A stretch of DNA of 64,000 bases from Thermospira aquatica (GTDB lineage Bacteria; Spirochaetota; Brevinematia; Brevinematales; Thermospiraceae): contig NZ_CP073355.1 in the NCBI RefSeq assembly GCF_023525255.1, positions 558,001 to 622,000 on the forward strand, read 5' to 3'. Position 1 is the stretch's first letter. The number at the start of each line of letters is the position of its first letter. The translations under genes and the position numbers were made by a program. Under the pieces are notes generated by a model, which had not been told where the DNA came from, made no database searches, and saw nothing but the letters and a program-made list of their open reading frames with translations. Shown here in pieces: positions 33,695 to 46,269 of this stretch.

Positions 33695-34492
33695 ATGGAA
33701 AAGGATTTTTTCACACTCTCAGAAAACGAATCTTACCAGATTCTCGAAAAAGCCCTCTGGCCAGAGGGACCTATTTGCCCAAGGTGTAAGGCAAAGGCTC
33801 ACCTTCTCTCGTGCCGGCTCGTGTATCAGTGCCCCAAGTGTGGCAGACAATTTTCCTTAAAAAGCCAGTCCATCATGCGAAAAAGTCACCTCTCGCCAAA
33901 AATCTGGCTTTCTGCCATGTTTCTTGTCTGCCAGGATTGTGGCATAAACGTCAAACTCTCGAAACTTCTTCATATCAGCTACAAGGCAAGCTGGCTTCTT
34001 CTTCAAAAACTGCGAAGCCTTATGCGGCTTACCACTCGCCATCACACGAAATCCCTCCAAAAGCTTGTGAAAACCTTTTTCTTTCTCTCCGGCATCAAAC
34101 GCCGCCAAAGAAAAAACTTTTCCCCCATGCAGGTTGTCGAACTTGATGCGGATGATACCCCTTCTAAACTTCACATTCACCTTGTGGATGATGTGAGTAG
34201 CGATTGGCTTTCAGACTTTTTTGGCAAGCTTTTCCGCCACACCTCGGTGGAAAAAAGAACGCCTTGGCTTTCCCACCTTAACGATGGGTTGAAAAACCTT
34301 CTTGAAGACGTCTATCACTATGGTTGTCGAAAGCACATGCAGCGCTATCTTGATGAGTTTTGCTTTCGGTTTAACATCGAGGGGGTTTCTTCCAGGCTTG
34401 AAGAGCTTTTAAGAAGGCTTGGCAAACGTCGCCAGCTTCTCCCGTGGAAAAAGCTTGTTGCTGAAGGGCTTATTCTTCCCATCTGGGCGTAG
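33695..34492 (+). CDS. IS1595-like zinc-ribbon protein with missing catalytic core (probable domesticated transposase)
   Basis: A 265-residue protein. Residues 25-60 form the IS1595-type zinc ribbon, with Cys pairs at 28/31 and 46/49 in CPRCKAKAH and CPKCGRQFSLKSQSIM. A helical DNA-binding region follows (~63-112). After a basic linker (KRRQRKNFSP) the DDE-fold part begins with VVELDADD at ~148-154. The chain then jumps quickly to VYHYGCRKHMQRYLDEFCFR, the C-terminal signature of IS1595/ISXO2 transposases. Only ~50 residues separate these landmarks where a transposase usually has more than 100, and the second Asp and the HxNxxE motif are not seen. A ~35-residue C-terminal extension is present. 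The ORF is intact with GGAG upstream. No terminal inverted repeats are visible; instead repeat arrays B and C lie on both sides in mirrored order. A DNA-binding role at those repeats is a hypothesis. Confidence 0.72.
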   Translation: MEKDFFTLSENESYQILEKALWPEGPICPRCKAKAHLLSCRLVYQCPKCGRQFSLKSQSIMRKSHLSPKIWLSAMFLVCQDCGINVKLSKLLHISYKASWLLLQKLRSLMRLTTRHHTKSLQKLVKTFFFLSGIKRRQRKNFSPMQVVELDADDTPSKLHIHLVDDVSSDWLSDFFGKLFRHTSVEKRTPWLSHLNDGLKNLLEDVYHYGCRKHMQRYLDEFCFRFNIEGVSSRLEELLRRLGKRRQLLPWKKLVAEGLILPIWA

Positions 34493-35418: not shown

Positions 35419-36954
35419 CTAAAACCTTGCCCCTACAACCATCGTGGCCCACCCTTTCCCCCACTTTTGGAGAGCCTGAGTATACTCAAACGCAACAAAG
35501 AAACGATCAAAATGAGTATTCAGCCGAAAAAGAGCAAGGCTCTGCTCCGCGAGCTGGTCAAAAGAAACTCCTGCCAACCCTCCCTCAGTTGAAAAAAGAA
35601 ACTCCACCGTCGTGAAAGGGAAAAGATTTTGTCCAAGAGAAAATCCACTCTCTATAGTCCACCATTCCCCATTACGATTTTTGATACCCCACTGCAAAGC
35701 AAGAGATTTTTTCTCCCCAAGAGTCCCATCAAGAGCCCACCCTACAAAATCCCTCTTTCCGAGCAACATCTGCTTAAGGGGTCTTGTATATCGATAAAAA
35801 GAATCAAAATACCAGGGCACATACCCTTCCTTACTCCAGGAAAATCTCCCACGCAGAGAAAAAAGTCTCCCATACCCAAAAGTAGCCCCACCCATATAGC
35901 CTGCCTTCTCATTAAGCCCCCCAATTTCACCCAGAAGGGCCACTGTCCATTCTTTCACATTCACGACTGGAACAAAGGCACTGATACCATATCCCGTAAC
36001 ATAGGAAATTTCTCCATTCGTCACCTGAAAAACCCCCGGGAAAAAGGGAGTGGAAGCATCATCTTCATTAACTATAAAAGCCTTGATACGAGTAGCTTCA
36101 AAAGGAGACCCGCTTCCCCAAAAAGGATGGATAAAGGTTTCCACCCCCCATCGGTCCCCATCAGAAGGTTTGTCAAAAAAAACACGCACTCCAACATCAC
36201 CAAAGTTTACTTGAGCCTGAAGAATATTCTCAGACCATGTGTAAGGATTATATCGTTTGATACTTTCTTCAACTAAAGCACCCTCACCAAACTGAAAAGA
36301 TGCTTCTCCCCACTGAACAAAGAAAAAATCTTCCCTGTTTCCAATGCTCACCGACTGAAGAAGTGCCAACCAGCCATCCAGTGTTTTCCAACGGGCATCC
36401 TCAAAACCATTGGTCCCCCATACCAGAGGAAGAGCAACCGAAATATCAAGAAAATCATTTGAGTATCCTGTTTCGATGAGCACACCTCTCTTTTCACTAC
36501 TGAAAATACCGCCTAACCCAATCGTTATACCCCTCGTCTGAGATTGTCCTGATTCGAGAGAAGTACGACCCTGTCCCTGCACACTTCCTCTCACGGCAGC
36601 CACAGCCACTTCACTCTGAATCTCAATAAGGGGTTTTTTCTTTCTAAAAAGGCCTGCCAATCCTTTTTTAGGTTTAGGGGCTTCCACAAGACGACTGACA
36701 GGGATGAGCGTTTTCCCAACAAGGCGAATAAGAGTACCATCACTTCGTTCAAGTTCAGCACTATCGTTTTCCCCAGAAAGTCTTAGAAACCCCTGAAGGG
36801 GCACCGTATCCTCTACATTCAACGTCCGCCATGGGCCAAACTCCATCGTCGCAAACTCAAGCTTCCCAACATACGAAATCACAGTAAGCGAAAGCTCCTG
36901 AGCAAATACCGAAAAAAAAGCCCCTAATAAAAAAAACATTGCATATTTCTTCAT
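35419..36954 (-). CDS. FecR-domain outer-membrane-associated protein
   Basis: A 511-residue protein with a signal peptide (cleavage after VFA at ~18). Residues ~25-135 form a FecR-like domain: VGKLEFATMEFGPWRTLNVE, DSAELERSDGTLIRLVGKT, and VAAVRGSVQGQG in place of the common 'vaaVRGT.f'. The remaining ~370 residues alternate hydrophobic and aromatic residues (GRLFSLRGRFSWSKEGYVPW, FVAFEYTQALQKW) and the chain ends in Phe, as outer-membrane barrels do. FecR domain plus barrel suggests a surface protein sensing or anchoring at the envelope; the function is unknown. Downstream there is no clear terminator before array C. Confidence 0.72.
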   Translation of the reverse strand: MKKYAMFFLLGAFFSVFAQELSLTVISYVGKLEFATMEFGPWRTLNVEDTVPLQGFLRLSGENDSAELERSDGTLIRLVGKTLIPVSRLVEAPKPKKGLAGLFRKKKPLIEIQSEVAVAAVRGSVQGQGRTSLESGQSQTRGITIGLGGIFSSEKRGVLIETGYSNDFLDISVALPLVWGTNGFEDARWKTLDGWLALLQSVSIGNREDFFFVQWGEASFQFGEGALVEESIKRYNPYTWSENILQAQVNFGDVGVRVFFDKPSDGDRWGVETFIHPFWGSGSPFEATRIKAFIVNEDDASTPFFPGVFQVTNGEISYVTGYGISAFVPVVNVKEWTVALLGEIGGLNEKAGYMGGATFGYGRLFSLRGRFSWSKEGYVPWYFDSFYRYTRPLKQMLLGKRDFVGWALDGTLGEKKSLALQWGIKNRNGEWWTIESGFSLGQNLFPFTTVEFLFSTEGGLAGVSFDQLAEQSLALFRLNTHFDRFFVAFEYTQALQKWGKGWATMVVGARF

Positions 36955-37026: not shown

Positions 37027-37055
37027 TTGATTTTCTTTTCATCTTCTGTTATAAT
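37027..37055 (+). promoter_or_regulatory. Promoter of the TPR gene cluster
   Basis: TTGATT (37027-37032), 17-bp spacer, TATAAT (37050-37055), 37 bp before the ATG at 37093. It should drive the three genes 37093-40150. Confidence 0.8.
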
Positions 37056-37092: not shown

Positions 37093-37602
37093 ATGAAAAT
37101 GAGTCGTTTATCATGGTTAATTTTCGTGGGAATGCTGTTGGTTTCGTGGGTTTTTGCACAGGATTACTCCATGTATTCTCCTGACGCCCGCAAAACACTG
37201 GCCAGCGATTGGCTTCTGACGGGTAAAGCATACCTGCAGGTGAAAAAATACAGCAAAGCAAAGAACTGTTTCATCTATGCCCACAATCTCTATCCTATGG
37301 GCGAAGCTGCTCAGGAAGCCCGCGAAATCCTTTCTCAACAATTTAAAGTCAAACTCACCTACGACGCGGAAAAGACATTTACGACTTTTGTATCTCAGGC
37401 TCAGCGGGCAAATAATCTCCAATCTCGCATCAATCTCTACCTCATGGCCCTCGACGCCAAAAAAGACGCAAGAATTTATGAGCAAGTGGCTTTGACCTAC
37501 CTTGAGCTGGGACAGAGAGATAAAGCAAAAGAATACGCTCTCATGGCCGTTCAGGCAGGCCTGCCAAAAGAGGAGCTTGATAGTCGTCTTAGTAGCCTGT
37601 AA
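37093..37602 (+). CDS. Small exported TPR-like protein
   Basis: A 169-residue protein with a signal peptide (cleavage after VFA at ~22). The mature part has helix pairs with TPR spacing: SDWLLTGKAYLQVKKYSKAK and, near the end, ARIYEQVALTYLELGQRDKAK. It is probably periplasmic and mediates protein contacts. The following membrane-anchored TPR protein, 19 bp downstream, is a likely partner. No exact family name is recognised. Confidence 0.75.
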   Translation: MKMSRLSWLIFVGMLLVSWVFAQDYSMYSPDARKTLASDWLLTGKAYLQVKKYSKAKNCFIYAHNLYPMGEAAQEAREILSQQFKVKLTYDAEKTFTTFVSQAQRANNLQSRINLYLMALDAKKDARIYEQVALTYLELGQRDKAKEYALMAVQAGLPKEELDSRLSSL

Positions 37603-37621: not shown

Positions 37622-39343
37622 ATGTTCTGGTTTACTGTGGCAATTGTTCTGGCAGGACTTACAGCGTACTTTCTTTATGCCACTATGCAAGAGGGAAAAA
37701 CAAAGCAAGCGCAGAGGGCTGTGGAGAGTGGAGATCTTGATACAGCCCTCTCTATTTTTATGGAATCGCTTCGTCACGATCCAAACAATGTTGAAGCATT
37801 ATGGCATCTTGGCAACATCAACGAGGAAAAAGGTCTTATCCCCGAAGCGATTGGCTACTATGTCAAACTCATTGAAATCGGTAAGGAATCGAAGCTTTTT
37901 ACCATGTTTGAGCTTTACCGCCGTGTGGGACTGTTGTATCGCCGGTTGGGAAGAGACAATGATGCCCTGGATTACCTCTTGCAAGCGTATCAGATCATTC
38001 CCTCGGCAAAAGACGTGATCCGTGAAATAGCAGATATCCTTTTCTCTCAAAAGTCTTTTTTCAGAGCTTTGAGTTTTTTCGAAAAAGGTGCAGTTTTTCT
38101 TAAAGATGAAGCACCCTTTATCAAACAGTACGCCTTCTGTCTTATCATGACAGACAAGGTGGAAATGGCCCTCCCCATGCTTGAAGCCTTAGAAAAAATG
38201 TTCTCTCATGATATTGAGTTTTTGTTTTTACTCAGTTTTGCCTATTTCAAGACAGCGGCTTACCAGCGAGCAAGAGAAATAATGGAAATAGCTCTCAACA
38301 GCAATTTCTCCCTACCTCTCAGCATGATGTACTTTGGGGTTAAGTTGCTTTTTGTTTGTTATCTCTATGCCAAAAACTATGAGATTGCAAAACAACTATG
38401 GGACCAACTTAAAAATCTTTCATTAAATTATACCGATGAAGGAGAACGACAACGAGAGCTTTCTATGGCTCTCATCATGCTTCGTACAAAACAAGGATAC
38501 TATGAAAATGCCATGGAGGAGTTAAAAGCAAACTTTCAAAAAGAAATTGCTTCAGGAGAGACAGGCGGAGGAAGCACTCTTGAGAGTAAACAGAGTCAGA
38601 GTTTTCTCTACAAGCTGCTTGCTATTCTCCATCGCTACAAGAAAGAACAGGAAAAAGAAGCGTATATGGGAAGTTCTGCCAAACAGACCCTGGATTATGC
38701 CAGACTTGAGAACGAAGCCAAAGATGCGATGGTAAAACTGGATCAAGTCTACCAGCAGTGGCTCTCCAGCTTTATCACCAAAGAAGAACTATGGGCCAAT
38801 TTCCGCCCTAAGGTATCCCTCACGTTTGATCCCATTCCTATCCTGGAGAAATACCTCGCCCCCAAAGAAAAACTCAAAAAAAGTAGTGGAAAACCAGAAC
38901 ATCTCTCTCGTAACGAAAAACAGGGAAAATACGAAACCCTGGGGCTCAATCCTAACAACCCCTGTGAGTCTCTTCTCTCGGTCGACTTCCCGTCGTTCAC
39001 AATCATCGTGAGAGAGCTCGCCTCAGATATGGGATACAGAGTACTCAGTCAGGTAGTCAAGGTAGATCCTCACGCCTATGGAGAAGCTAAAGGGTTTGAT
39101 CTCCTCTGTGAGGAAAAAGCAGATAATCGGTCAAGAGTACTCTTTTGCGTAAGAAGATGGACTGAACCCATAGGCTCTATCTATCTCACCAACCTGCTCT
39201 CCGCCGCAAAGGAGTTCGATGTTGAACGTATTGTAATGGTGGCGACTTCTTCCCTTTCACAAGAAGCAGAACGCTGGTTAGAAACCAACAAAAAACTGCA
39301 GTATCTCAATTGCGAGGATATTATTAGTTTTCTGTTAAACTAG
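37622..39343 (+). CDS. Membrane-anchored TPR protein with C-terminal Mrr-like nuclease fold lacking key residues
   Basis: A 573-residue protein. Residues 3-22 are a membrane anchor. Residues ~28-330 contain about eight TPR units (for example AVESGDLDTALSIFMESLRH, EALWHLGNINEEKGLIPEAI). A Ser/Lys-rich linker (~410-445) leads to a domain at ~450-573 whose pattern GFDLLCEEKA, RVLFCVRRWTEPIG, LTNLLSAAKEFDVERIVMVA, LSQEAERWLE follows Mrr-type restriction endonuclease folds. In active Mrr the second strand has Gln/Glu-x-Lys; here it reads Cys-Val-Arg, so catalysis is unlikely. The anchor near the N-terminus puts the bulk either in the cytosol or periplasm; a nuclease-like fold suggests cytosol. The gene is between two envelope-related genes in one operon. 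Confidence 0.7.
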   Translation: MFWFTVAIVLAGLTAYFLYATMQEGKTKQAQRAVESGDLDTALSIFMESLRHDPNNVEALWHLGNINEEKGLIPEAIGYYVKLIEIGKESKLFTMFELYRRVGLLYRRLGRDNDALDYLLQAYQIIPSAKDVIREIADILFSQKSFFRALSFFEKGAVFLKDEAPFIKQYAFCLIMTDKVEMALPMLEALEKMFSHDIEFLFLLSFAYFKTAAYQRAREIMEIALNSNFSLPLSMMYFGVKLLFVCYLYAKNYEIAKQLWDQLKNLSLNYTDEGERQRELSMALIMLRTKQGYYENAMEELKANFQKEIASGETGGGSTLESKQSQSFLYKLLAILHRYKKEQEKEAYMGSSAKQTLDYARLENEAKDAMVKLDQVYQQWLSSFITKEELWANFRPKVSLTFDPIPILEKYLAPKEKLKKSSGKPEHLSRNEKQGKYETLGLNPNNPCESLLSVDFPSFTIIVRELASDMGYRVLSQVVKVDPHAYGEAKGFDLLCEEKADNRSRVLFCVRRWTEPIGSIYLTNLLSAAKEFDVERIVMVATSSLSQEAERWLETNKKLQYLNCEDIISFLLN

Positions 39344-39358
39344 TAATAAGGAGTAAAG

Positions 39359-40150
39359 ATGAAAAAAATTTTCGACTTTCTTCTGACGCTTTTACTCACG
39401 ATTATCGTGGCACTCTGGGTATACAGGCTTTCAATAACATATCAAGCCCTTCCAAAAGGAGAAAATCTCGCATACATTTATTTCATCGTAGAACTATGGA
39501 TTTTTACCTTTTTCCTGATAGCGTCAGGCATTGTGGTACTCTGGACATGGAACACTGAAAAACAAAAAACAGAAAACTCCCAGGAACTTGCAAAAGAGGT
39601 CAAACGACTCTCTCTTTTACTGGACAGAAAAGATTTTCAAATCCAACGAGGGAAAACCGATGAGCTTGATATAAGAAAACTCGAGATGTTTCTCCGTCCA
39701 CTCCGATCAAGTACAACAGCAGAATGGGCCACCCATGTAATCGAAGAATGTTTTGTCCTGTGTGGAGCGAGGAGAATCTCTGTTTTCATCAAAAGGGGAG
39801 AGAATCTCCTTCTTGAAAAGTCTATGGGTCTCCCGGATGCAAAAGTAGGCCAAAAAGTTGCCCCTGAAGACCTCGCATTTCGGATGTTTCAGAAACAGAA
39901 GAGACTCTTTGTCACAGAGATTGAAACTCATCCAGAAATTGGCCGCCCGAACCGAATGGGATATGCTTCTCACTCTTTCCTTATTATTCCCATTACGACG
40001 TATCAGCAAGAAGCTCTCGGAGTAATCAACCTCACTGAAAAGGAAAACGCTGGAACCTTTACCCAAACAGAACTTGACATGGTCTGTCATCTCATCACGA
40101 TAGCATCATACCGTCTCAAGACACTTCTTGAGCAGGAGGAAAAACTTTAA
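39359..40150 (+). CDS. Membrane protein with GAF domain
   Basis: A 263-residue protein with two hydrophobic helices (~residues 7-26 and 40-63), a short coiled coil (~70-95) and a C-terminal GAF domain (~115-255: RRISVFIKRGENLLLEKSMG, FLIIPITTYQQEALGVINLTEKENAGTF in parts). GAF domains bind small ligands or cyclic nucleotides, but no output domain is attached, so it may act with a partner. It follows the TPR/Mrr-like gene by 15 bp. Confidence 0.8.
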   Translation: MKKIFDFLLTLLLTIIVALWVYRLSITYQALPKGENLAYIYFIVELWIFTFFLIASGIVVLWTWNTEKQKTENSQELAKEVKRLSLLLDRKDFQIQRGKTDELDIRKLEMFLRPLRSSTTAEWATHVIEECFVLCGARRISVFIKRGENLLLEKSMGLPDAKVGQKVAPEDLAFRMFQKQKRLFVTEIETHPEIGRPNRMGYASHSFLIIPITTYQQEALGVINLTEKENAGTFTQTELDMVCHLITIASYRLKTLLEQEEKL

Positions 40151-43728: not shown

Positions 43729-45969
43729 TTACTTTTTCGTCAATAATCGAGGAAAAGAAGAAACCGGCATAAGACGATTTTCATACGTAAACAGGTACAT
43801 CTGATAATACCCCAGCACTTTGCGAATATAGAGACGCGTTTCCGTATAGGGGTGAATCTCTGCTAAAACCACATCATCGTCAGGCTGGAAACGGAATTTT
43901 GTTTTTTCTAAAGCCAGATTACCCCCATTATAGACAGCCAAAGCCCCAATAAGGCCATAAGACTGGAGGGAACTTGCCAGAAACCTTGTCCCAAGGAGAA
44001 TATTGTTAGCTGGGTCATAGATACTCACATGATGTTCATCAAAAACTGAAGGAATAATAAGACGGGCGGTACTGGGCATGAGTTGCATGAGACCAATAGC
44101 TCCGGCACGGGAACGCGCCCTTGTATAAAAGAGACTCTCCCCTTTGATAACTGCATGGACAAGGTAGGGATCAACAAGATTATTTGTCTGAAGAGAAAGA
44201 GCGAGCTTTGTTTCTTGGACATAAGGCAAAGGATACAAAACCTTCAAAAACTCTTCCGGAAGAAAGGCAAGGTGATTTTTGATGAGAGGGTTTTGCTCCA
44301 CACGGCTAAAAAGCTCTCGCGATCGTTGAAAGTTTTTATAGTAGACAAGAACCTTGAGAATAGCGAGATCAGCAACTGTTTCATTCTGAATACCGGCCTC
44401 GTAGAGAAGCTGACGGGCATAATCAGCAAACCCAAAACGGCTATACACCAACCACCGAAAGTATTTCTCCAGGGGAAGCTTCTCAAGTGGAACTAGAGAA
44501 GAGTTAAAAAAATCAGGATAGAGCTTGCCAAGCAAAACAGAAACTTTTTGTTTGTAGGTTTGTTGGGACATTCCATCAGAGAGCCCATAAAGGATCTTGT
44601 TATAAAAGAGCTTTTCCGATGGATTTTTGGTATTTTCTTCCATCGCCTCTATATCTTTTAAATATTTTTTCACCTCCTCAGAAGAGAAGATCTCACGAAT
44701 ATAGCTTCTCGCCCAAAAACCATAGTAGCCGCTCGGAGACATTCCTATAGTTCGCCCCCACTCCCGAAAAGCAAGATCACGGTCACCTATATGCCACGCA
44801 CTATAACCATACCAAAAGGCCACACCTTCAGAAATACCACCTACATTGGATACAATGCCCATCTTCTCATAGGTCTGACCAATCCAATAAACAATACGAT
44901 CAAACTGCTTGTAAGCAAGCAAATTGCGAATGAGAAGTTCGGGGTTTTTAGAGATATATTCCTGATGAAACCCTTTGGTGAGAAAGGTTTCATAATATTT
45001 TTCTGCTCGAGTTGGGTTATAGTTTGCCTTACGACTTAACGTCCGAAGCCCACGGTAAGCATACGCTGCCTGGGCAAGCGAACTCCCTTTCGGCAGAGAA
45101 ACCTGACTCATATTCCGATACGCCAAAAGCTCCTCTACCACCTTTGGATATCCCTTCTGCTTGAGAAAAGCCTCAAGTTGTTTAATAACCTCATCATCAG
45201 AGGAAGCCAGAAATATCCCCCATTTTTCAACCCAATCTCCAGGAGGATGATTCCTGGCAATGTAAAGTTTTCCCTGCTCAAGTAAAAGAGAATAAAGCGC
45301 CGGTGTAAAACTTTTTTCGAGAATCTGGAGTTGTTCCTCTGGAGACAAATTCTCCCATAGTCTTTTTACAAAAGAGGTGTAGGTTTCTCCATGCACAGCA
45401 GAAGGAGCAGGGAGAGATAAAAGAACCTGTTTTTGCTTTTTTTTCTCCCCTATCCGGGTATAAATATCAAGAAGGGCAAAAGCTGTATCAAATTGCCGAT
45501 ACATCGTCGGTAGATTCCAGGCTTCTTCCAAAAATTCCCGTGCCTTGGAGAGGTTTTTCTCCCTGGCAAAGATCCTGGACATCCCCACTAGAGCGTCTCG
45601 TTTCAAGAAACTTTCGCCTGTTGTAAGAGCATACATCGCCTGATACGATTTTAAAGCCCATACAGGCTTATTTTCCCGCTCGTACAATTTGCCAAGGGTA
45701 TGATAAACCTCAGGCTTTAAAATAAAACCTGTTTCGAGAAGATTGGAAAGTACTCTATGGGCATAGGCAAGATCGTTTTTGGTGAGCTTTGGTTTGGTTT
45801 CCACTGCCTGATAAACCTGATAAAATTCCTGAAGATCCGCATAGTGCTGCTCAAAAAGAGATTCTATGAGAGCACGCTGGTTGGGTTCATAAGCAAAGTT
45901 GAATACCAAAACAACTGTGAAAAAGAGAACCAAAAACTCCCAACGTATGAGATGTTTCAGATAGACCAT
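43729..45969 (-). CDS. Lytic transglycosylase (Slt-like) with TPR-rich superhelix
   Basis: A 746-residue periplasmic enzyme. Residues ~5-27 are a signal/anchor (WEFLVLFFTVVLVFNFAYEP). Residues ~40-590 are helical repeats of TPR type, as in the U-shaped domain of Slt70. The catalytic SLT domain is at ~605-725: the Glu in VIKGESLFYTRARSRAGAIG, GLMQLMPSTA, NILLGTRFLASSLQSYG, ALAVYNGG and the ETRLYIRKVLGYYQMY end. It cleaves peptidoglycan strands to 1,6-anhydro ends during growth or recycling. The ATG at 45969 has GGGGAG upstream; the open frame extends further but the leader there has the promoter at 46018-46046. Confidence 0.92.
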   Translation of the reverse strand: MVYLKHLIRWEFLVLFFTVVLVFNFAYEPNQRALIESLFEQHYADLQEFYQVYQAVETKPKLTKNDLAYAHRVLSNLLETGFILKPEVYHTLGKLYERENKPVWALKSYQAMYALTTGESFLKRDALVGMSRIFAREKNLSKAREFLEEAWNLPTMYRQFDTAFALLDIYTRIGEKKKQKQVLLSLPAPSAVHGETYTSFVKRLWENLSPEEQLQILEKSFTPALYSLLLEQGKLYIARNHPPGDWVEKWGIFLASSDDEVIKQLEAFLKQKGYPKVVEELLAYRNMSQVSLPKGSSLAQAAYAYRGLRTLSRKANYNPTRAEKYYETFLTKGFHQEYISKNPELLIRNLLAYKQFDRIVYWIGQTYEKMGIVSNVGGISEGVAFWYGYSAWHIGDRDLAFREWGRTIGMSPSGYYGFWARSYIREIFSSEEVKKYLKDIEAMEENTKNPSEKLFYNKILYGLSDGMSQQTYKQKVSVLLGKLYPDFFNSSLVPLEKLPLEKYFRWLVYSRFGFADYARQLLYEAGIQNETVADLAILKVLVYYKNFQRSRELFSRVEQNPLIKNHLAFLPEEFLKVLYPLPYVQETKLALSLQTNNLVDPYLVHAVIKGESLFYTRARSRAGAIGLMQLMPSTARLIIPSVFDEHHVSIYDPANNILLGTRFLASSLQSYGLIGALAVYNGGNLALEKTKFRFQPDDDVVLAEIHPYTETRLYIRKVLGYYQMYLFTYENRLMPVSSFPRLLTKK

Positions 45970-46017
45970 TTCTCCCCCTTGTGACTTTAGAAAACATGTC
46001 CCTTTAAGTAAGGCAAT

Positions 46018-46046
46018 ATTATAAGGAAAAAAAACTTTTTTATCAA
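46018..46046 (-). promoter_or_regulatory. Promoter of the slt-MATE-ykgJ-tsaC-nth operon
   Basis: On the minus strand TTGATA (46046-46041), 17-bp spacer, TATAAT (46023-46018), about 49 bp before the slt ATG. The remaining intergenic bases to 46269 show nothing further. Confidence 0.8.
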
Positions 46047-46269
46047 GAAATGGGAGAAAAGCATGTGTTCCCTGGATTGAAAAACGTCCCTTGAGTTTAA
46101 AAAATATCATTGGCTTTCTTCACCACCGCAAAAAGTATGTTTTTTTTGAAAGAAAACCATCAGAACCTCTGCACTACTCAGGAAAAGGCAAAAAGCTTCT
46201 TTTTTTCGGAATTTTCAACAGTGAGACGATGCTTCCGAAAGATGAGTGTCATTCTCGGGGTATGGTACC

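Follow-up and report, generated by a model that had tools for sequence, protein, structure and literature searches.

A membrane-anchored TPR protein with an Mrr-type pseudo-nuclease domain, found in most of the spirochaete genomes searched

The gene considered here lies in a stretch of 64,000 nucleotides from Thermospira aquatica, which is referred to throughout as the window and which belongs to a genome of 2.515 Mb on a single contig. The ends of its reading frame, an ATG at 37622 and a stop codon that closes at 39343, are exact, and the protein that it encodes combines an N-terminal membrane helix and an array of TPRs with a C-terminal domain of the Mrr family (Table 1). It is flanked on the same strand by a gene for an exported TPR protein, which ends 19 bases upstream, and by a gene for a membrane GAF protein, which begins 15 bases downstream, and gaps as short as these suggest that the three genes form one transcript. 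The possible promoter listed for this cluster must be read against the fact that the promoter region holds four sigma-70-like sites, compared with a mean of 4.9 after shuffling, and thus shows no excess of them. The GAF domain of the downstream protein matches its profile with 27.2 bits against a cut-off of 22.4. Two other genes of the window lie near the cluster on the opposite strand. The one at 35419-36954 encodes a divergent exported protein of 511 amino acids which appears FecR-like by eye and has no Pfam match at E≤0.001; the other, at 43729-46110 and some 3.6 kb away from the GAF gene, encodes an SLT lytic transglycosylase of large size in which TPR matches weakly. A reading frame of 265 amino acids at 33695-34492 is presumably an IS1595-type transposase-like gene, as judged by eye.

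Table 1. Features of the three-gene cluster and of the focal protein, in window coordinates
Feature	Position	Strand	Basis or remark
Possible promoter of the three-gene cluster, TTGATT-17-TATAAT, TG before the -10	37027..37055	+	10/12 matches
Exported small TPR protein, 169 aa, signal-peptide-like start	37093..37602	+	TPR_2 24.6 bits, below cut-off 27
Focal gene, TM-TPR-dead Mrr protein, long (L) type, 573 aa	37622..39343	+	Pfam, AF2
N-terminal membrane helix, aa 1-20	37622..37681	+	Positive residues after helix; AF2 helix 2-35
TPR / helical-repeat superhelix, about aa 28-395	37703..38806	+	Pfam TPR, AF2 helices, PDB TPR matches
Flexible linker, aa 413-431	38858..38914	+	pLDDT under 50 (AF2)
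Mrr_cat-like pseudo-nuclease domain, aa 453-570	38978..39331	+	Pfam profile and AF2 order
D493, retained Asp of the former active site	39098..39100	+	Sequence, alignment
C509-V510-R511-R512-W513 at the site of the active Mrr Q-x-K	39146..39160	+	RRW is the long-type signature
Membrane GAF protein, 263 aa, two hydrophobic segments	39359..40150	+	GAF aa 126-246 (39734-40096)

The first 19 residues of the focal protein are hydrophobic, with a mean Kyte-Doolittle value of 1.83, and its TPR families score above their Pfam cut-offs, the best of them being TPR_2 with 48.1 bits (cut-off 27); a fold search of the PDB returned TPR matches up to Z 19.0, with an rmsd of 5.7 over 272 residues. The initial annotation, which was made from the letters alone, had described a membrane anchor joined to TPRs between an exported TPR protein and a membrane GAF protein, and this description holds for the anchor and the repeats as well as for both neighbours, with the reservation that the TPR match of the upstream protein stays below the cut-offs. 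The orientation of the protein in the membrane can be estimated from charge. Counting lysines and arginines on the two sides of the membrane helix in 71 of 74 family members (three short or contig-cut proteins were omitted) gives more of them after the helix in 65, equal numbers in 3 and fewer in 3; one of the 71 has no membrane helix near its called start. Because of this excess after the helix, the positive-inside rule places the part comprising the TPRs and the Mrr-like domain on the cytoplasmic side of the inner membrane, where it is therefore predicted to reside.

The assignment of the C-terminal domain to the Mrr family rests on a profile match and on a predicted fold. In the Pfam scan Mrr_cat (PF04471) matches the domain with 42.8 bits (cut-off 21, E 6.5e-11), and a search of the whole 2.5-Mb genome found the same place with 43.8 bits as one of two matches at E≤0.001; the Pfam E-value, together with the conservation of the domain across the phylum, makes a chance origin of the match unlikely. 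The Mrr_N DNA-recognition domain is absent from the 22 Pfam families reported for the protein at E≤1. A full-length AlphaFold2 model, which was made from nine sequences and has a mean pLDDT of 83.7 (block means of 76-88 over residues 451-570), arranges residues 456-572 as helix, strand, short helix, strand, strand, helix, strand, helix, strand and helix, and this order matches the helix-strand-strand-strand-helix-strand core of PD-(D/E)XK enzymes as far as secondary structure goes. The earlier proposal of an Mrr-like nuclease fold in this part of the protein is accordingly supported by the PF04471 profile and by the predicted fold order, a structure prediction having returned the PD-(D/E)XK core at the level of secondary structure.

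Fold searches with the full-length model are uninformative on the Mrr-like domain, since TPR chains dominate their 50 best rows. The model of the domain by itself, which was predicted from a single sequence, is poor (pLDDT 50.7). When this low-confidence model is compared with known structures, RPB5 jaws head the list with Z 5.8 (rmsd 1.7 over 55 residues and 3.0 over 77); the AspBHI restriction enzyme reaches Z 5.4 with an rmsd of 4.5 over 118 residues, and AF1548 (1y88) stands at rank 5 with Z 4.4 (rmsd 2.5 over 66 residues). These Z values are low and amount to no more than agreement with a restriction-enzyme fold. The profile of the long type of the domain, to which the focal protein belongs, also has RPB5 as its top match among PDB chains (E 0.0013 at chain level), a marginal match whose best single stretch covers 44 residues at E 0.037. 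The profile of the short type found no clear relative in the PDB, with a best E of 0.019 for a designed protein and 0.38 for RPB5. We take the RPB5 jaw of RNA polymerase to be a non-catalytic restriction-enzyme fold that serves protein assembly; a search of the open-access literature for the jaw as a restriction-enzyme fold found no paper.

The canonical motif of Mrr enzymes is D...QxK. The focal domain fails even the wider pattern D...[QE]xK, because D493 is present and the place of QxK is taken by C509-V510-R511 (39146-39154). The extent of this loss was assessed in 74 family domains, which come from 58 of 61 genomic regions (the window included) and were selected at E<1e-15; they are a non-random sample, because the regions were picked for an Mrr_cat or focal-domain match in a frame of mostly 380-640 amino acids. 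Regions L130, L132 and L156 yielded no family domain; in L132 the protein L132_8, with E 2.8e-10, did not reach the threshold for selection. A complete D...[QED]xK occurs in 0 of the 74 family domains and in 30 of 30 stand-alone Mrr controls, which were picked by profile match alone (loci L003-L032) and are canonical by selection, since they are the best Mrr_cat scorers of the spirochaete-genome search. Partial remnants of the motif do occur: the six members which keep the Lys have neither the Asp, which is N, A or G, nor the Gln, and the four which keep Q or E have R, Q or G at the Lys position. Asp occupies its column in 36 of the 74 domains, and the column of the Lys holds R in 34, I in 8, L in 7, Y in 6, K in 6, F in 5 and others, including Val and Ser, in the rest. 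As judged from the lost motif, the domain is very likely without nuclease catalysis.

The position after that of the Lys is R in 68 family domains, K in 5 and Q in 1, and among the 33 long-type domains the Trp is invariant (100%), Arg stands at the Lys position in 94% and the next Arg is kept in 88%, while the E and the D of an E-x-x-x-x-D stretch of the pocket are each kept in 85%. The short and the Treponema-like types have conserved columns of their own and lack the RRW signature. The conservation of the RRW and of the pocket E and D within the long type suggests that the face of the former active site is under constraint, and the Asp...Arg-Arg-Trp pocket of the long type would be the fixed signature of a reused surface and not a mark of decay. 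The initial annotation had read Cys-Val-Arg in place of the Gln/Glu-x-Lys, which is correct to the residue, and the loss extends to a family in which none of the 74 domains has a complete triad; its term "degenerate" undersells a domain in which, within the long type, the replacing residues are themselves conserved.

For the purposes of this analysis, a member of the family is a protein with an N-terminal membrane helix, TPRs and a C-terminal Mrr-like domain without the triad, as found in the focal protein. The only other Mrr_cat match of its genome at E≤0.001 is in a shorter protein, of 457 amino acids, built on the same plan, and the nearest named relatives found for the genome are Brevinematales MAGs, whose proteins are 78-79% identical. 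Across 296 spirochaete genomes PF04471 matches 248 at E≤0.001, a count which includes active Mrr enzymes. The profile search in other spirochaetes which had been proposed with the initial annotation, carried out with the short-type profile, found a match in 262 of the 296 at E≤1e-5, where a match may be any type of the family or, when weak, an active Mrr, and where 14 of the unmatched genomes are outside those listed; all nine weak matches that were read (E 2e-8 to 2e-14, from eight genomes) are family-like by eye. Every Borrelia-like genome among the matches listed has one short-type match, and PF04471 found nothing in most of these genomes. In the Borrelia-like protein, TPRs and a hydrophobic segment at the N-terminus accompany the C-terminus of the family, and Mrr_cat gives no match at E≤0.01. 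The assignment of genomes to such groups follows from genome size and gene content. The family is thus present in small genomes too, both the Borrelia-like ones and a Treponema-like one of 1.1 Mb. The focal protein has no match at E≤1e-5 among plasmids and phages, as would be expected of an inherited housekeeping gene.

The types are related to each other. Profile comparison of the long type gives 98.9% probability (E 9.8e-18) with the short type and 98.1% (E 9.4e-14) with the Treponema/Leptospira-like type. In a tree of the domain, built by a quick method from 120 columns and 106 rows (30 active Mrr and 76 family rows), one branch with an SH-aLRT value of 97 separates the active Mrr enzymes from the family; because the split falls on one branch, a single loss of catalysis is the simplest reading. 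Within the family, the Treponema-like type and Borrelia form a clade (89), and the short and Treponema-like types group together (96) when one long-branched row is excluded; 42 of the 103 inner branches are open, and the long-branched L158_7 falls outside the three family types. A third, fast-evolving paralogue of the same TM-TPR-Mrr plan, with 514 amino acids, stands between the long-type and GAF genes at L063:7572-9116, L074:8323-9867 and L076:7204-8748, in genomes of one family. The Mrr_cat match of a Borrelia-like genome (G133, region L104) is in a different protein of 477 amino acids outside the family, by eye a DNA methyltransferase with a nuclease-like C-terminal part, and region L101 has a similar match in a frame of 101 amino acids. 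No locus numbers are claimed for the Treponema copies: TP0920 was rejected for the copy near 995 kb, where the next gene is by eye an MgtE-like transporter, and TP0095 and TP0471, likewise conjectural, were dropped. For BB0261, a conjectural identity of the Borrelia gene, no paper was found in the open-access literature.

The neighbours of the family depend on lineage. In the order to which the window belongs, all eight long-type loci examined have a GAF membrane gene 3' of the long-type gene or of the adjacent 514-aa paralogue, and six of the eight have the exported TPR gene directly upstream, several of these genomes being close relatives. Of the 33 long-type loci, 16, every one from another lineage, have a ParB-like gene as the immediate neighbour of the long type. 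Of the ParB-like proteins, one passes the ParB_N cut-off of 26.3 with 31.6 bits and another falls below it at 18.6, and the ParB_N-like neighbour at L068:6821-7750 shows weak similarity to the nucleoid-occlusion protein Noc. These 16 regions hold a second family gene in 13 cases and commonly a cNMP-binding and patatin-like protein, a small membrane protein and a STAS protein. A protein of about 740 amino acids with no Pfam or NCBIfam match (L068:9357-11627, L061:9339-11567) occurs in 14 of them and also in the short-type regions L137 and L146. A large TPR protein is found in 8 of the short-type regions and a second small TPR protein in 7. In a Borrelia-like genome, an M23/LysM peptidase adjoins the family gene on one side, and on the other side one unrecognised reading frame is followed by an SLT lytic transglycosylase. 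Two sister genomes have genes similar to that of the 511-aa FecR-like protein of the window close to their long type, and in L172 and L173 the short type has exported proteins nearby which were judged FecR-like by eye. Because the neighbours differ in this way, with GAF and exported TPR genes in one lineage and cNMP-patatin, STAS and ParB-like genes in others, no single partner is common to the lineages examined.

Taken together, these results describe a membrane TPR protein which includes an Mrr-type pseudo-nuclease and which recurs in most of the spirochaete genomes searched. As to its role, the best explanation, to which we assign a probability of roughly one half, is that the protein is a housekeeping scaffold of the spirochaete inner membrane in which the dead nuclease fold has become a binding module. 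The helix would hold the protein in the inner membrane, and both the TPR superhelix and the C-terminal domain would face the cytoplasm; the latter would keep the Mrr fold and be unable to cut, its catalytic Lys having become Arg and its Gln Cys; the former active-site face, with Asp...Arg-Arg-Trp in the long type, would be retained to bind a partner protein or a small ligand; and the TPRs would hold other partners. In the order of the window, the best candidate for a partner of the protein is the membrane GAF protein conserved next to it. We infer both the binding role of the pseudo-nuclease and the partnership with the GAF protein. The initial annotation had suggested a DNA- or nucleotide-sensing scaffold at the envelope, and it is the scaffold in this suggestion that the architecture makes plausible.

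Two of the alternatives give the domain or its neighbours a ligand of a more specific kind. According to one, the dead Mrr domain binds DNA without cutting it and so links the nucleoid to the membrane. This would fit an established DNA-acting fold and the ParB-like gene that adjoins the long type in nearly half of its loci, one such protein being a ParB_N match above the cut-off, but another is below it, Mrr_N is not among the families reported for the focal protein, and in the order of the window the neighbour is a GAF and not a ParB-like protein. Nor does charge decide the matter: the window domain has a net charge of -4, and the family median is 0.5 (-4 to 10) compared with 2.0 (-3 to 5) for the 30 active Mrr domains, so that, with overlapping ranges, it neither helps nor excludes DNA binding. 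On balance a DNA tether seems rather unlikely. According to the other, which we consider unlikely to a still greater degree, the domain or a partner binds a nucleotide, possibly a cyclic one, and the protein relays second-messenger levels to enzymes of the envelope; ligand-binding neighbours of this sort do exist, with GAF here and the cNMP-binding, patatin-like and STAS proteins in other lineages, but many GAF domains bind no nucleotide, and neighbours do not demonstrate ligand binding by the Mrr domain itself.

The remaining alternatives are each improbable. That the domain is still a nuclease, with altered chemistry in which Arg511 stands in for the Lys, is suggested by D493 and by the Asp kept in almost half of the family, but it is very doubtful given that no family domain has the complete motif; since the members with Lys lack both Asp and Gln, and Ile, Leu, Phe, Tyr, Val or Ser replaces the Lys elsewhere, there is no common alternative catalytic set. 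An equivalent of the Borrelia FlcA/FlcB flagellar collar, or a scaffold of the periplasmic flagellum like it, is more doubtful again. The spirochaete collar includes TPR proteins, as stated in its description (PMC8609358), and relatives of the focal protein have weak FlcA_CTERM matches; a collar identity was nevertheless rejected, because FlcA is encoded elsewhere in this genome, where only G000:C1:2459928-2461913 passes the FlcA_CTERM cut-off of 300 with 446.1 bits and the focal gene is absent from the 16 matches, and because FlcB and FlcC are described in that source with signal peptides for export, in contrast to the predicted cytoplasmic C-terminus here. Least probable of all is an anti-phage defence protein, a sensor resembling type IV restriction. 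It would be in keeping with an origin in the Mrr family, and two relatives match PADLOC models over their Mrr-like part (PDC-S02 with up to 38.5 bits, E 1.9e-10; mREase_IV with up to 26.8 bits, E 7.2e-7), but such matches are to be expected from common Mrr descent, the sole PADLOC match of the focal protein is a weak one to a TPR model (E 0.011), the protein has no phage or plasmid match, and the spread of the short-type profile is unlike that of patchy defence genes.

The membrane scaffold with a reused nuclease fold can be extended into a larger and more speculative scenario, which is possible but doubtful. An ancestral restriction enzyme would have lost its activity a single time, close to the root of the Spirochaetota, and become fused to a TPR array with a membrane anchor. 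Its descendants would have diverged into paralogous scaffolds (the long, the short and the Treponema-/Leptospira-/Borrelia-like type), which would now be core envelope machinery with an Asp...Arg-Arg-Trp face that binds a specific ligand or partner. If this were true, the family would be a signalling or assembly hub of the whole phylum, overlooked because its members are annotated as TPR proteins or as restriction endonucleases. Even apart from this scenario, the retention of a dead restriction-enzyme domain in most of the phylum is a sign of some function common to these cells, whose envelope is unusual and whose flagella are internal. When annotation is automatic and relies on PF04471, many proteins of the family could be labelled restriction endonucleases, which is very likely wrong. 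The conserved Arg-Arg-Trp face offers a direct target for mutation, and the conserved neighbours form a short list of candidate partners.

A description of this TM-TPR-pseudo-Mrr family was not found in the open-access literature on spirochete Mrr or TPR proteins or on inactive restriction enzymes. Mrr-like restriction enzymes are treated as effectors of conflict systems in a study whose available part names no such spirochaete family (PMC7159879), and a study which reports few phylum-wide core genes in spirochaetes mentions neither TPR nor Mrr in its text (PMC12236494). Compared with Mrr itself, the focal protein shares the domain family by profile and the predicted order of the core, but its family lacks the complete triad, carries a membrane anchor and TPRs, and has no reported Mrr_N. 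It resembles NA-iREase1 (PF22722, the NACHT-associated inactive restriction enzyme) in having an inactive restriction-enzyme domain fused to other modules, but it scores 14.6 bits against that profile, and the relatives scanned at most 24.5, where the cut-off is 27, and no NACHT domain is reported. The N-terminal jaw of RPB5, which heads both the long-type profile search and the low-confidence domain comparison, is part of a eukaryotic polymerase subunit, and the sequence match to it is confined to the short stretch given above. Like the collar proteins FlcA and FlcB, the focal protein is a TPR protein; FlcA is a separate gene in this genome, and FlcB and FlcC are described as exported. In overall plan it is close to LapB (YciM), an adaptor with an N-terminal membrane anchor, cytoplasmic TPRs and a small C-terminal domain, which in LapB is a rubredoxin; the focal protein scores at most 28.3 bits against the NCBIfam LapB models, far below their cut-off of 363, and so falls outside the LapB family, the corresponding C-terminal position being held by an Mrr-like domain.
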